A DNA stretch of 10,220 bases from a bacterium (GTDB lineage Bacteria > ARS69): the NCBI GenBank assembly GCA_025774865.1, contig JALGZO010000470.1, positions 1 through 10,220 on the forward strand. The letters run 5' to 3'. A program made the position numbers and the translations under genes. The notes under the pieces are model-generated. The model ran no database searches and was not told where the DNA came from. It was given only the letters and a program-made list of their open reading frames with translations. Shown piece by piece: positions 4,690 to 10,140 of the stretch. Numbering within the stretch: position 1 is the stretch's first letter; every line of letters starts with the position of its first letter.

Positions 4690-6072
4690 ATGAGCACGAA
4701 ACACGAGCTCGTGATCGTCGCCAACCGCTTACCGGTCCGGCGACTGCAGCGGCAGGGCCGACGCGAGTGGAAGCTGAGCCCGGGTGGGCTCGTCTCGGCG
4801 CTCGTCCCGATTCTCGAGGGGCGAAACGGCGTCTGGGTCGGCTGGGGTGGGCACACGGGTCCGGCCGGCTCGTCGTTCCGGTTCGGCGACTTCGCGATCC
4901 AACCCGTCCCGCTCTCCAAGCGCGAGCTCGAAAGCTTCTACTACGGCTTCTCCAACCGCACGCTCTGGCCGCTCTATCACGACGCCGTCCGCTGGCCCGA
5001 GTACCACCGCGTGTGGTGGGGTCCCTATAAGGAAATCAATCGCCGTTACGCGGAGGCCGCGGCGTCGGTGGCGGCCGAGAACGCGGTCGTCTGGGTCCAC
5101 GACTACCACCTGCAGCTCGTGCCCCAGCTCCTGCGCCGCATGCGGCCCGATCTGCGGATCGGGTTCTTCCTGCACGTTCCGTTCCCGCCGCAGGAGCTCT
5201 TCGCGCAGCTCCCGTGGCGCCGCGAGATCCTGCAGGGCCTGTTGGGCGCGGACGTCGTCGGGTTCCAGACGAAGACGGGAGCCTCGAACTTCACGGGGCT
5301 CGCGAAGCGCTACGCTCGGGCGAAGGGGTCGCCCAACGCGCTGGCCTACCAAGGGCGGACGGTGCGGGCCGCGGCCTTTCCCGTGTCGATCGACTTCGAA
5401 AAGTTCGAGAAGCTCGCGCGGACCGCGACGGTGCAGGCAGACGCCGAGAGGTTCCGGTATCAACTCGGAGTGCGGCGCAAGATCATACTCGGCGTCGACC
5501 GGCTCGACTACACGAAGGGAATCGACATCCGGCTTCGCGCATTTCAGGAGCTGCTCTCTCGCGGGGACGTTTCGCTCGAGGACTGCGTGTTCGTGCAGAC
5601 GGCGGTTCCCAGCCGGGAACGCGTCGTCACGTACCTCGATTTGAAGAAGCGCGTGGAAATGCTCGTGGGTCAGATCAACGGCGAGTACGCGGACGTCGGG
5701 CGCGTCGCGATCCATTACCTCCACCGGAACCTCCCGATGGAAGAGCTCGCGGCCCTCTACGTGGCGGCCGACGTGATGCTCGTCACGCCGTTCCGCGACG
5801 GGATGAACCTCGTCGCGAAAGAATACGTCGCGACCCGCGTCGACGAAACGGGTACGCTCGTACTGAGCGAGTTCACGGGAGCGGCGGTCGAGATGGGGAA
5901 CGCGCTCCTCGTGAATCCGCACGACGTCGACGCCGTGTCCTCCTCGATTAGCCGCGCTCTTCGGATGCCCCGCGCCGAAATGGGTCGCCGCATGAGACGG
6001 CTGCGCTCCGCCGTGCGGGGTCATGACGTCTTCGACTGGGGTCGCGAGTTCCTGGAAGCGCTCGAAGCATGA
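4690..6072 (+). CDS. otsA: Trehalose-6-phosphate synthase (UDP-forming), GT20
   Basis: OtsA transfers glucose from UDP-glucose to glucose-6-phosphate, making trehalose-6-phosphate in the cytoplasm. The product is 460 residues, the normal length for bacterial enzymes. It contains the N-terminal ANRLPV (11-16) and the glycine loop S-P-G-G-L (30-34). Also present are YGFSNRTLWPLYH (85-97), WVHDYHL (135-141), the nucleotide-sugar site DRLDYTKG with R271 and K276 (270-277), and TPFRDGMNLVAKEY (366-379) with D370. All known catalytic and phosphate-binding positions appear intact. A purine-rich GAAGAAGGAG lies immediately before the ATG. The stop codon overlaps the next gene's start as ATGA, so otsA and the fusion gene are probably translated in a coupled way. 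The product is an osmoprotectant precursor; high osmolarity or general stress control is typical of the pathway. Confidence 0.97.
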   Translation: MSTKHELVIVANRLPVRRLQRQGRREWKLSPGGLVSALVPILEGRNGVWVGWGGHTGPAGSSFRFGDFAIQPVPLSKRELESFYYGFSNRTLWPLYHDAVRWPEYHRVWWGPYKEINRRYAEAAASVAAENAVVWVHDYHLQLVPQLLRRMRPDLRIGFFLHVPFPPQELFAQLPWRREILQGLLGADVVGFQTKTGASNFTGLAKRYARAKGSPNALAYQGRTVRAAAFPVSIDFEKFEKLARTATVQADAERFRYQLGVRRKIILGVDRLDYTKGIDIRLRAFQELLSRGDVSLEDCVFVQTAVPSRERVVTYLDLKKRVEMLVGQINGEYADVGRVAIHYLHRNLPMEELAALYVAADVMLVTPFRDGMNLVAKEYVATRVDETGTLVLSEFTGAAVEMGNALLVNPHDVDAVSSSISRALRMPRAEMGRRMRRLRSAVRGHDVFDWGREFLEALEA

Positions 6073-8600
6073 CGACGCTGGCCGAACGGATCGAGCAGAT
6101 CGCGAAGGTCCCGATCCTGCTGGTGGGCACGGACTACGACGGGACGCTCTCCCCGATCGTGGAGAACCCGATGGATGCGCGCGCCCACCCCGAGGCGCTC
6201 GTCGCACTGCGCAACCTCGCCCTGCTTCCGCAAACGCACGTGGCCATCATCTCGGGGCGAGCGCTCCGCGACCTCGACAAGCTCGCGCCGCTGCCCGACG
6301 AAGTGCATCTCGTGGGAAGCCACGGCAGCGAGTTCGATCTGGATTTCTACGAACAGCTACCACCCGAGAAGACGGATCTTCGGCAAGAAGTACACGACCG
6401 TCTGCACGAGTTCGCGGCGATGGACCCCGGTTTCTACGTGGAAGAGAAGCCGGGGAGCCTCGCGTTCCACTATCGAAAGGCGCCCGACGAGAAGGCCAGG
6501 GAAGTGGTGCGGGAAATCGAGCGCGATCCGGGAGGCCGGGCAGGAGTCCACGTCCGTCACGGCAAGAAGGTGATCGAGCTGGCCGTGGTCGAGACGAACA
6601 AGGGCGAGGCGCTCGAAGCGATTCGCCACCGCGTCGGCGCGAGCGCGGCGATCTACATCGGAGACGACGTGACGGACGAGGACGCGTTCGCGAGCCTCAC
6701 CGGCCCGGACGTGGGCGTGAAAGTCGGCGGAGGAGAGACGCGGGCGAAACACCGTATCGAGGATCCGGACGAGGCGGCGCGCGTGCTCGCCCAGTTGTGC
6801 GAGATGCGCGCCGACTGGTTGAACGCGGCTCAGTTCGTTCCCATCGATGCGCACTCGATGCTTTCCGACCAGCGGACGGCGGCGCTGCTCGCGCCGGGGG
6901 GACGCATCGTCTGGTACTGTGCTCCGTGCCTCGACTCGCCGGCTCTCTTCGCGGAGCTCCTCGGGGGGCCGGTGGCGGGTCACTTCACCGTGCGGCCGGT
7001 CGGCGACGATTCTCCCGGAACTCAGCACTACGTCGCGAACAGCATGGTCGTCGAGACGAAGTGGCGAAACGTGAAGCTGACCGACTTCCTCGATTGCTCG
7101 GCGGAACGAACCTTGCAACGTGCCGGTCGCTCCGACCTCGTCCGCATCGTCGAGGGGACCGGCGAGGTCGAGCTGGTGTTCGCACCGCGTCTCGATTTCG
7201 GCCGGACCCCGACCTCGATGCACCCTCGCGATTCCGGCCTCGAGATCGAGGACACGTTCGATCCGATCGTCCTCTTCTCGCCGGGCATCGAGTGGCAAAT
7301 CGTCCAGGAGGGCTCGCACGATACGGCCCGAGCGCGCCTCAAGCTCGACGAGCAACCGTTGATTCTCGAGCTGCGCTACGGCACCGGCACGCTCCGGGGA
7401 CGCATGGGCGCGGCGCAGGAACGGCTGGTTCGGACGAACCGGCACTGGGAAACCTGGACGGAGAGTCTACGCCTGCCCCGGGTCGAGAAGAAGCTCGTCG
7501 TGCGCAGCGCGCTCGTTCTCAAGGGACTCTGCTACGGTCCGAGTGGCGCGATCGCGGCGGCCGCGACCACGAGCCTGCCAGAGCACGTCGGCGGCGTCCG
7601 CAACTGGGACTACCGGTACTGTTGGCTCCGGGACGCCGCGCTCGCCGCCACGTCGCTGGCGAAGCTCGGCTCGTTCAGTGAGCCCATTCGCTTCCTCGAC
7701 TGGGTGCTCGGCATTCTCGATCGGCATACCTCGCCGGAGCGGCTCCATCCCGTGTACACCCTGACCGGCCGCGAGCTTCCTCCGGAGGGCGAGATCTCGG
7801 AGCTGTCGGGCTACCGCGGCAGCCGTCCGGTGCGCGTCGGCAACCTCGCGGCGAATCAACTCCAGCTCGACGTGTTCGGCCCCATCGTCGAGCTCATTCT
7901 CGTGATGATGTTCCGCGACGCTCCTCTGTCATCCGAGCACTGGCGCCTCGTGGAGGCGATGGTCACTGCGGTGTCGAAGCGATGGGAGGAGCGGGATCAC
8001 GGGATCTGGGAAGTGCGCACGCGTCGCAGACACCACGTTCACTCGAAGGTGATGTGCTGGGTGACGGTCGATCGCGCCTGCACGCTGGCCGACCACTATC
8101 TCGGCCGCCCGCGCGACGACTGGATGGGCCTTCGGGACCGGATTCGCGAAGATGTTTTGCACCGCGGCTGGAACGAAGAGGTGAAGGCGTACACCGCGAC
8201 CTACAATTCCGAGGGGCTGGACGCGGCTACGCTCGAGATCGGCCTGAAGGGGCTCATCGAACCGACCGACCCGAGGTTCGTGTCGACAGTCGAGAGGATC
8301 CAGCAGGAGCTGAGCCTGGGACCGGGCGTCTATCGCTACCGGTACGACGACGGCCTGCCCGGGTTCGAGGGCGCATTCCATCTCTGCACGGCGTGGCTGG
8401 TTCAGGCTCTGTGGTTGATCGGCCGCAAGGACGTGGCTCGCTCGTACTTCGACCAGATGATCGCGCTCGCGGGACCGACAGGGCTTCTTTCCGAGGAATA
8501 CGGTCCCCGTACGAAGCGGGCGCTCGGGAATCACCCGCAGGCGTACTCGCACATCGGGGTGATCGACTGCGCTCTCATGATGGACGAGGACGAGGGGTAG
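6069..8600 (+). CDS. otsB: Fusion: trehalose-6-phosphate phosphatase (OtsB) + GH15 glucoamylase/trehalase-type hydrolase
   Basis: This 843-residue cytoplasmic protein joins two enzymes. Residues 1 to about 245 are an OtsB phosphatase of the HAD superfamily. Its motif I is DYDGTL (22-27, nucleophile D22, acid D24), motif II is IISGRA with S62, and the metal site is GDDVTDEDAF (198-207). It would release phosphate from trehalose-6-phosphate. Residues about 257-470 match the GH15 N-terminal beta-sandwich (SDQRTAALLAPGGRIVW), and about 475-840 the (alpha/alpha)6 catalytic barrel. The barrel has the sugar-binding VRNWDYRYCWLRDAA (510-524), the probable general acid E648 in GIWEVR, and the probable base E809 or E810 in LLSEEY. 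Both active sites look intact. GH15 includes glucoamylases, glucodextranases and mycobacterial-type trehalases. Context favours trehalose or a related glucoside, but specificity is inferred. No stop or internal ribosome site separates the halves. Confidence 0.95.
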   Translation: MTTLAERIEQIAKVPILLVGTDYDGTLSPIVENPMDARAHPEALVALRNLALLPQTHVAIISGRALRDLDKLAPLPDEVHLVGSHGSEFDLDFYEQLPPEKTDLRQEVHDRLHEFAAMDPGFYVEEKPGSLAFHYRKAPDEKAREVVREIERDPGGRAGVHVRHGKKVIELAVVETNKGEALEAIRHRVGASAAIYIGDDVTDEDAFASLTGPDVGVKVGGGETRAKHRIEDPDEAARVLAQLCEMRADWLNAAQFVPIDAHSMLSDQRTAALLAPGGRIVWYCAPCLDSPALFAELLGGPVAGHFTVRPVGDDSPGTQHYVANSMVVETKWRNVKLTDFLDCSAERTLQRAGRSDLVRIVEGTGEVELVFAPRLDFGRTPTSMHPRDSGLEIEDTFDPIVLFSPGIEWQIVQEGSHDTARARLKLDEQPLILELRYGTGTLRGRMGAAQERLVRTNRHWETWTESLRLPRVEKKLVVRSALVLKGLCYGPSGAIAAAATTSLPEHVGGVRNWDYRYCWLRDAALAATSLAKLGSFSEPIRFLDWVLGILDRHTSPERLHPVYTLTGRELPPEGEISELSGYRGSRPVRVGNLAANQLQLDVFGPIVELILVMMFRDAPLSSEHWRLVEAMVTAVSKRWEERDHGIWEVRTRRRHHVHSKVMCWVTVDRACTLADHYLGRPRDDWMGLRDRIREDVLHRGWNEEVKAYTATYNSEGLDAATLEIGLKGLIEPTDPRFVSTVERIQQELSLGPGVYRYRYDDGLPGFEGAFHLCTAWLVQALWLIGRKDVARSYFDQMIALAGPTGLLSEEYGPRTKRALGNHPQAYSHIGVIDCALMMDEDEG

Positions 8601-8622: not shown

Positions 8623-8733
8623 CCGCCGTGAGAGGGCTGGTGTCTCTCGACCGCATCAAGGGCCCGGGTTCCTTTGGGGGTGTGGCATGTCGGAGGGCCC
8701 AGCGGACGAGAGACACCAGCCCTCTCACGGCGG
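8623..8733. repeat. Long inverted repeat: 27-base perfect arms around a 57-base spacer
   Basis: Bases 8623-8649 and 8707-8733 are perfect reverse complements over 27 bases; the arms begin CCGCCGTGAGAGG and end GTGTCTCTCG. Pairing can continue inward: one mismatch, then CCGC with its complement, a small internal loop, and GGGCCC (8660-8665) with GGGCCC (8695-8700), leaving a 29-base loop. The element occupies most of the gap between the convergent 3' ends of the fusion gene and the histidine kinase. No T-tract follows either arm, so it is not a standard intrinsic terminator. It contains no transposase or obvious open frame, and no clear target duplication flanks it. It may be a small non-autonomous mobile element, a REP-like sequence, or a structured 3' end. 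Confidence 0.85.
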
Positions 8734-8790
8734 TGGCATCAACCGGAGTACGCTCGCTGCGGGGGCCAACATGACAGCGTGGACGGAACC

Positions 8791-10140
8791 CTAGGCGGCC
8801 GGCAGCCACAGCGAGAAGACCGAGCCCTGGCCGGGGGTGGACGCGGCCTCGAGGTGCCCGTCCATCTTCTCCGCGAGACTCTTCGCGAACGCGAGCCCGA
8901 TCCCGAGACCCCCGTGCTCGCGGGTCTGCGAGCCGTCGCCCTGCCGAAACGATTCGAAGATCACGGGAAGTCGCTCGGGCTCGATACCGGGGCCGTCGTC
9001 GGCGACGTCGACTCGAACCCACTCCACCCCGTCCACGCTCTCGAGATCGACGCGCAAGTGGACGTGCGATCCCTGAGGCGAGAACTTCACCGCATTGTCC
9101 ACGAGGCAGTCGACGATCTGCAGCAGCCGCTCTCGCTCGAATAGCGCGGGAGTGGGCGTCGACGCGGCGGAGAACTTGAATTCCCTCAGATCCGTGCTGA
9201 TCCCGGGCCGGCGGTCTTCGTAGAACGCCATGAGCGCTTCCCGAACGTCGCCGCGCTGGACGTCGATCGTCAACCGATCCTGGAGCAGCTTTCCGAAGTC
9301 GAGCAGTTGCAGGAGCATTCCGTGGAGCTTGGTGGTCTGGCTGCGGATGACCTTGAGGTGGTCGCGGCGCGTTCCTTCCTCTTCCATGCCGAGAATCGAA
9401 TCGAGATACGCGATGATGATCGTGAGCGGCGTGCGGAGCTCGTGGTTCATGTTGCGCAAGAACTCGCTCTTCAGGCGGTCGAGCTCCTGGAGTTGCTCGT
9501 TGGCCATGCGCAACCGACGGTTGTTCTCGATCGCACGGTTGTAGACGTTCGTGTTCTCGACGGAGACCCCGAGCAGGTTGACGGATGCCTGCAGAATCTC
9601 TCGATCCAACGAGCCGAAGTCGTTGCCGGAAACGCGCCGCCCCAGGGCAACGAGGCCCGAGAGCGAACGCCGGGCGGTGACCGGGGCGAAGATCGCGATG
9701 CCCTTCTCCTCCGCGAGGTCGAGGTCCGGTCCGCTCCCGAGGTCCCTCAATTCGGAGAGGAGCAGCGGTTCCAGAAGCTCCCCGGGTCGATCCAAGAGCC
9801 ACCGGGTCCACGCGCCCCCGATCGCCTTGGCGACCGTCTCGGCGATGCCTTGGCTGCGGACCAGAACGGGTTCTCGGCTCCGGACCTCGGGCAGTATCCA
9901 GAAGGCGCCTCGACTGCAGCCGAAGTGTCCCAACAGATTGTAGAGAGCTGCGTCCGCGATCTCGTAGAGATCCAGGCGGACGCTGAGCTCCTGGCTGAGC
10001 TCGAGGAGCGATAGAAGACTCAGGTCTCCGCTGGGACGGCGGAGAGCCGGCCGACCCTGGTCCATCTTGGCCGGGGCAGCCGGTTCCTTGGCCGGTCGAT
10101 CCCGCCGCGGCGCGGGCCCGCGAGGGGGGAACGCTCTCAA
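8791..10140 (-). CDS. Cytoplasmic sensor histidine kinase with GAF domain
   Basis: This is a 449-residue two-component kinase lacking any transmembrane segment, so it senses a cytoplasmic signal or acts within a protein complex. A Pro/Arg-rich N-terminus (1-38) precedes a GAF-like sensor domain (about 45-200). A helical linker follows (ENNRRLRMANEQLQELDRLK), then the HisKA domain with phospho-acceptor His233 in MNHELRTPLT. The HATPase_c domain has the N box around N349 (VDNAVKFSPQG), G1 DDGPGIEPE (381-389), F box ESFRQGD, and G2 GGLGIGLAF (410-418). All kinase boxes are present. No receiver domain or adjacent response regulator is visible. The start is uncertain: TTG at 10140 overlaps the upstream stop as TTGA, which suggests coupling, whereas ATG at 10065 would drop the low-complexity first 25 residues. 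It lies downstream of a likely STAS-protein gene, pointing to a phosphorelay or partner-switching module. Confidence 0.93.
   Translation of the reverse strand: MRAFPPRGPAPRRDRPAKEPAAPAKMDQGRPALRRPSGDLSLLSLLELSQELSVRLDLYEIADAALYNLLGHFGCSRGAFWILPEVRSREPVLVRSQGIAETVAKAIGGAWTRWLLDRPGELLEPLLLSELRDLGSGPDLDLAEEKGIAIFAPVTARRSLSGLVALGRRVSGNDFGSLDREILQASVNLLGVSVENTNVYNRAIENNRRLRMANEQLQELDRLKSEFLRNMNHELRTPLTIIIAYLDSILGMEEEGTRRDHLKVIRSQTTKLHGMLLQLLDFGKLLQDRLTIDVQRGDVREALMAFYEDRRPGISTDLREFKFSAASTPTPALFERERLLQIVDCLVDNAVKFSPQGSHVHLRVDLESVDGVEWVRVDVADDGPGIEPERLPVIFESFRQGDGSQTREHGGLGIGLAFAKSLAEKMDGHLEAASTPGQGSVFSLWLPAA

Follow-up and report, generated by a model that had tools for sequence, protein, structure and literature searches.

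A probable family of low-copy palindromic repeats with a conserved core and copy-specific arms, mostly found beside stop codons in one bacterial genome

Introduction

Why should a long, perfectly matched inverted repeat stand between the 3' ends of two convergent genes? The question arises from the stretch of DNA analysed here, 10,220 nucleotides of contig C474, referred to below as the window. A first-pass annotation, made from the letters of the window, had proposed as options a mobile or REP-like element, an RNA structure at the shared 3' end and a bidirectional Rho-independent block, and had named, as the finding that would undo it, a palindromic assembly artefact at this point together with absence of the element from closely related assemblies. 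The host assembly comprises 4.7 Mb in 785 contigs (92.7% complete, 8.3% contamination), and the repeat was followed through this genome, through other genomes and through the literature on palindromic repeats.

Results

The inverted repeat in the window is real. Its arms, 27 nt long and exact, lie at 8623-8649 and 8707-8733 around a 57-nt spacer, precisely where the first-pass annotation had placed them, and the inner pairing that it described is also present, CCGC facing GCGG and GGGCCC at 8660-8665 facing GGGCCC at 8695-8700. When the single A·A mismatch at 8650/8706 is tolerated, each arm reaches 32 nt: the left arm (8623-8654, + strand) is exact up to 8649 and continues past the mismatch into CCGC, and the right arm (8702-8733, + strand) complements it at 97% of positions across the 32 nt. 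The whole element (8623-8733) is assigned to the + strand by its 55-nt core at 8651-8705, which reads CCGC-ATCAA-GGGCCC...GGGCCC-A-GCGG. The inverted repeat scored 29, whereas the best score among 200 first-order randomised versions of the whole window was 17. Predicted RNA folding energies were -90.5 kcal/mol (z -9.1) for the + strand and -86.4 kcal/mol (z -12.2) for the - strand, and on either strand none of 200 shuffled sequences was as stable.

The convergent setting was also confirmed. On the left, a gene encoding a fusion of trehalose-phosphatase, a trehalase-like N-terminal domain and GH15 (6069-8600, + strand) has its stop codon 22 nt from the hairpin, while on the right the stop codon of a sensor histidine kinase gene with HisKA and HATPase_c domains (8791-10140, - strand) is 57 nt away. 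The fusion gene overlaps a preceding otsA (GT20), the two together occupying 4690-8600, an adjacency that places trehalose synthesis alongside possible breakdown.

A hairpin in a convergent-gene gap, immediately past the stop codons and with a strong GC-rich stem on both strands, is where an unusual bidirectional intrinsic terminator might be expected, or an element inserted into the loops of existing terminators. However, the lack of a T-tract noted by the first-pass annotation held on either side of the window hairpin; over the 20 nt that follow the right arm, no T run exceeded a single base in the window or 3 bases in any other copy. The terminator scan of the window returned no terminator-like site, and the loop is at least 47 nt long. 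With the T-tract absent and the loop too long, this explanation was rejected as very improbable, and with it the Rho-independent block.

DNA, pattern and covariance-model searches of the host's own assembly agreed on five full copies of this hairpin, here called type I, each of about 110 bases, on contigs C474 (the window), C704, C358, C130 and C154. An additional, truncated copy on C704 belongs to a 121-bp tandem duplication in which the left arm was lost. Outside the window, the neighbours of type I copies include an nqrF-like gene (C704), the gap between topA and trmFO, the 3' side of coaBC, and a locus with a uracil-DNA glycosylase gene on one side and an unidentified open frame on the other. 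Around the C154 copy the open frames diverge, their starts lying 175 and 136 nt away. Hairpin elements occurred singly or in small clusters among housekeeping genes, and an integron-like cassette arrangement was not seen. Within the same assembly the type I core was found solely in the short copies, and comparison of the copy flanks by eye gave no consistent target-site duplication. Just past the full copy on C358 there is a lone short palindrome, GGCGAGAGGCACTGGCCTCTCGCC, which resembles one type I arm (L038:1000-1035).

The fragmented state of the assembly and its level of contamination are circumstances in which a palindromic artefact of assembly or amplification might be suspected. A fold-back product, however, would have unrelated centres, and here one core lies inside five contigs, with different genes around it and with arms that differ between copies and match within each. 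The artefact is thus very unlikely, to the point of being negligible, and was rejected.

Among the five type I copies, identity averaged 90.5% over the 55-nt core, 81% over the inner arms and 37% over the outermost six pairs. The conserved part of the family is therefore the spacer, or core, and not the arms, which begin with GTGA in three copies and with ATGA and AAGA in the others. Standard pairs nevertheless made up 98.6% of the paired cells, and shifting the partner by 1-3 columns lowered pairing to about 45%. Two-sided changes were found at 10 pairs, against a shuffle mean of 4.6, and none of 500 shuffles reached as many. In the C130 copy the inner GGGCCC stem is shorter by one base on each side, the two having been lost jointly. 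The first-pass annotation had read the perfect arms of the window as a sign of recent origin; since the arms are well matched in all five copies although the copies differ from one another, this reading is weakened. It had also linked an RNA structure to compensatory changes, and these are present between copies, though not between species.

Outer pairs that have diverged and yet remain paired, together with the two-sided changes, indicate either that the hairpin is selected or that each arm is time and again rewritten from the other, and both selection and template switching would fit the sequence data. Template switching is known to create and repair perfect stems (PMC8794818), and it could be envisaged that switching around a replication-stalling core both makes and corrects the arms, which would then be matched without function in an element that is neutral debris. 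Arms that match within each copy and differ across copies, with outermost pairs so little alike and still paired, are as expected of such a process, and the tandem duplication on C704 that lacks a left arm shows local slippage. However, template switching gives no account of one 55-nt core at five separate loci and leaves the core's resistance to change unexplained. As the whole explanation we regard it as possible but somewhat unlikely.

Next to the hairpins a second repeat recurs, the 26-bp sequence GTCAACYSSMGTACGCYCGCAGCGG, often in tandem and present at about 11 loci genome-wide. It was found at four of the five type I loci, with a degenerate version at the fifth, and also at the type II loci on C72 and C28 described below. 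In the window a degenerate single unit with 2 mismatches (8738-8762, + strand) sits just to the right of the hairpin. An array of about six tandem 26-bp units of the GTCAACTGCAGTACGCCCGCAGCGGT type, flanked by two type II hairpins, was observed on C72 (L102:2623-2786), and arrays of the same type of unit occur on C358, C31 and C719.

Further hairpin types were detected by inverted-repeat scanning and BLAST, and were counted in about 434 kb of host sequence chosen in part for containing elements or repeats. In these sampled stretches, types II, III and IV each had a core of their own and two to four copies per type. Type II hairpins, met on inspecting further loci of the 26-bp repeat, lie on C28 and C72; type III on C704 and, twice, at the end of C780, where the contig breaks off within the last copy; and type IV on C358 and C760. 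The type III core was 85% identical between C704 and the first C780 copy. The outer arms of type III matched at 0.67-0.70 between copies, near random (random mean 0.56, maximum 0.73), whereas within each copy the arms matched at 0.87-0.90. In type IV, the apical loop as well as the outer arms differ between C358 and C760, and the middle is common to both. One type IV hairpin (C760, L041:3649-3761) lies between rpoC and downstream ribosomal-protein genes, 23 nt past the rpoC stop codon.

The type I model matched the type II loci on one strand, at 40 and 32 bits and with the CCGC/AGCGGA junction in register; the sequence-only shuffle test gave a weak result (p ~0.01-0.2), so that homology of types I and II is no more than suggested. 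The hairpin types may also be unrelated look-alike elements. Scanning 180 kb from a second contig set added a single small hairpin. At an equal threshold, long-spacer hairpins were rare in sampled stretches of two relatives, one with none in 400 kb and the other with 3 in 304 kb, against 7 in 188 kb of the host (G000), a comparison that is only indicative because the host stretches included element-bearing contigs and part of the seven were parS-like sites and an intragenic repeat. A cluster of at least 4-5 TGTTTCACGTGAAACA sites, set about 57-83 bp apart by spacers that are themselves partly repeated, lies near a contig end on C350 (L122:8963-9237); these sites resemble canonical chromosomal parS. 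A relative (G002, L153:10893-10972) has an imperfect inverted repeat of 26 nt with a spacer of 28 nt, apparently unrelated in sequence.

Most hairpins have an end 2-33 nt away from a stop codon, and no T-tract follows any of them. This group takes in the type I copies on C474, C130 and C704 (on its nqrF-like side), type II on C72, type III on C704 and C780, and type IV on C358 and C760; the exceptions are C28 (123 nt), C154, where the hairpin is upstream of both open frames, and the inner members of clusters. The orientation of the core relative to the neighbouring gene is mixed in types I and II, as would be expected of a dispersed DNA element more than of an RNA specific to a gene, while both type IV copies follow their gene (topA and rpoC) in the same orientation.

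Could the hairpins instead be cis-acting RNA at the 3' end, protecting the mRNA end, being cut by RNase III, or blocking the polymerase or Rho-dependent transcription, with a core that binds protein and copies duplicated because they are useful? Structured RNAs are classically marked by covarying arms around a conserved core, and the closeness of the majority to a stop codon and the two type IV copies, each trailing its gene in the same orientation, argue in the same direction. Set against these, the core of types I and II has no fixed orientation with respect to the upstream gene, and the C154 copy lies between divergent open frames. Rfam did not offer a family either, as the window had no match at the gathering score and the elements gave low-scoring chance matches below it. 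We therefore consider a cis-acting RNA unlikely as the primary explanation.

Searches outside the host gave no relatives. The type I covariance model was run on 59 other genomes, among them each of the four further members of the phylum that were examined, and had zero matches. When about 85,000 GTDB genomes were scanned by pattern, no relative of the element was found; two stretches from that scan (L035 and L036) were discarded, as their fold was unlike that of the element and their count fitted chance expectation. Viral contigs contained no match to the full type I core, to types II, III and IV or to the 26-bp patterns, and three viral-contig matches to an 18-base piece failed the model. Plasmids gave zero matches to all four hairpin types, as did phages to type II, the one type searched there. 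In the host's own ~93%-complete assembly, the profile for RAYT/Y1 transposases, PF01797 (Y1_Tnp), had no match at E <= 0.001, with weak sub-threshold matches only.

Discussion

A non-autonomous palindromic element is the best fit to copies that are dispersed, mixed in orientation and clustered with other repeats, and that conserve their core. With modest confidence we favour a low-copy, dispersed, non-coding palindromic repeat of several families, non-autonomous, whose arms are kept paired by selection, template switching or both. The hairpins are probably a further version of the small palindromic mobile-type repeats of bacteria. Of the mobile or REP-like option in the first-pass annotation, the dispersal has stood, with five full copies mostly by gene 3' ends, while the copy number turned out to be low.

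The host genome carries at least four hairpin types of common layout and different sequence, each element of 105-135 bp. The conserved core, asymmetric and about 55-85 nt long, has small internal loops, and the GC-rich arms that close it are self-complementary in each copy and different between copies. Such elements may have spread as non-autonomous palindromes of a REPIN-, RPE- or MITE-like kind, with the folded core as the probable feature recognised, and would be tolerated beside stop codons. Their arm pairing could be maintained because the hairpin is selected, because replication switches template from one arm to the other, or for both reasons. Transcribed from either convergent gene, the window copy would form a very stable hairpin right after the stop codon, through which the end of the mRNA might be stabilised or processed. 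A role in 3'-end RNA is plausible for the hairpins, given that related repeats act in this way (PMC10969869, PMC3733652), and the mobile-element and RNA-role readings are mutually compatible.

A bolder proposal is a new class of palindromic element in which the folded core is recognised and not the ends, a single hairpin layout is common to several unrelated cores, the copy-specific arms arise as inverted copies of local DNA at insertion or are rebuilt later, and insertion is aimed just after stop codons, often by a 26-bp repeat. This we hold to be doubtful. Known bacterial palindromic repeats have ends that are recognised and conserved, and elements conserved in the middle would suggest that hairpins can be recognised or made in another way. 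Arms that are copy-specific and yet match themselves also offer a natural test between selection and replication template switching as the source of paired stem changes. The host lies in a phylum from which five genomes were covered here, so that these hairpins are not described from model organisms.

Among known systems, the REPINs and their RAYT transposases (PMC3116915, PMC2817692) are similar in their size of about 100 bp, their two inverted arms, long hairpin and extragenic location, and also in their compensatory changes across the two sides and their tandem clusters. However, REPINs have conserved ends and a variable spacer (PMC3116915), the reverse of the conserved core and variable arms seen here. 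The GT(A/G)G head at the REP foot is absent, five full copies and one partial stand against tens to hundreds, and a cognate RAYT was not found in the assembly at the threshold given above. Canonical membership, and with it the REP/REPIN option of the first-pass annotation, was therefore rejected, and because of the mismatch in conservation, head and RAYT the hairpins are classed as working like non-autonomous palindromic elements without being members of the REPINs.

The Rickettsia palindromic elements (RPEs) and other multi-family palindromic MITEs (PMC10969869) are alike in having several palindromic families of about 100-150 bp per genome; in contrast to RPEs, which often lie in frame within genes, the hairpins here are intergenic. 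GTAG- and CGTC-tagged REPs and TIRYT-associated TIR repeats (PMC3733652) are likewise palindromic and mainly downstream of coding regions; they have been proposed to act as RNA hairpins, and the CGTC REPs lack a dedicated transposase (PMC3733652). The tagged REPs, however, are units of 20-40 bp with a tetranucleotide tag, whereas here GT(A/G)G is absent and the core is the conserved unit. Correia, ERIC and similar gene-end MITEs (PMC10969869) share the intergenic inverted-repeat form, and they are transcribed and undergo RNase III processing or alter mRNA stability (PMC10969869); their terminal inverted repeats are conserved within the family, unlike the copy-specific arms of the present hairpins. 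Of the features of a MITE, the hairpins thus have the short length, the non-coding sequence, the terminal inverted repeats and the several dispersed intergenic copies, but their terminal repeats vary by copy in place of family-conserved ends common to an autonomous element.
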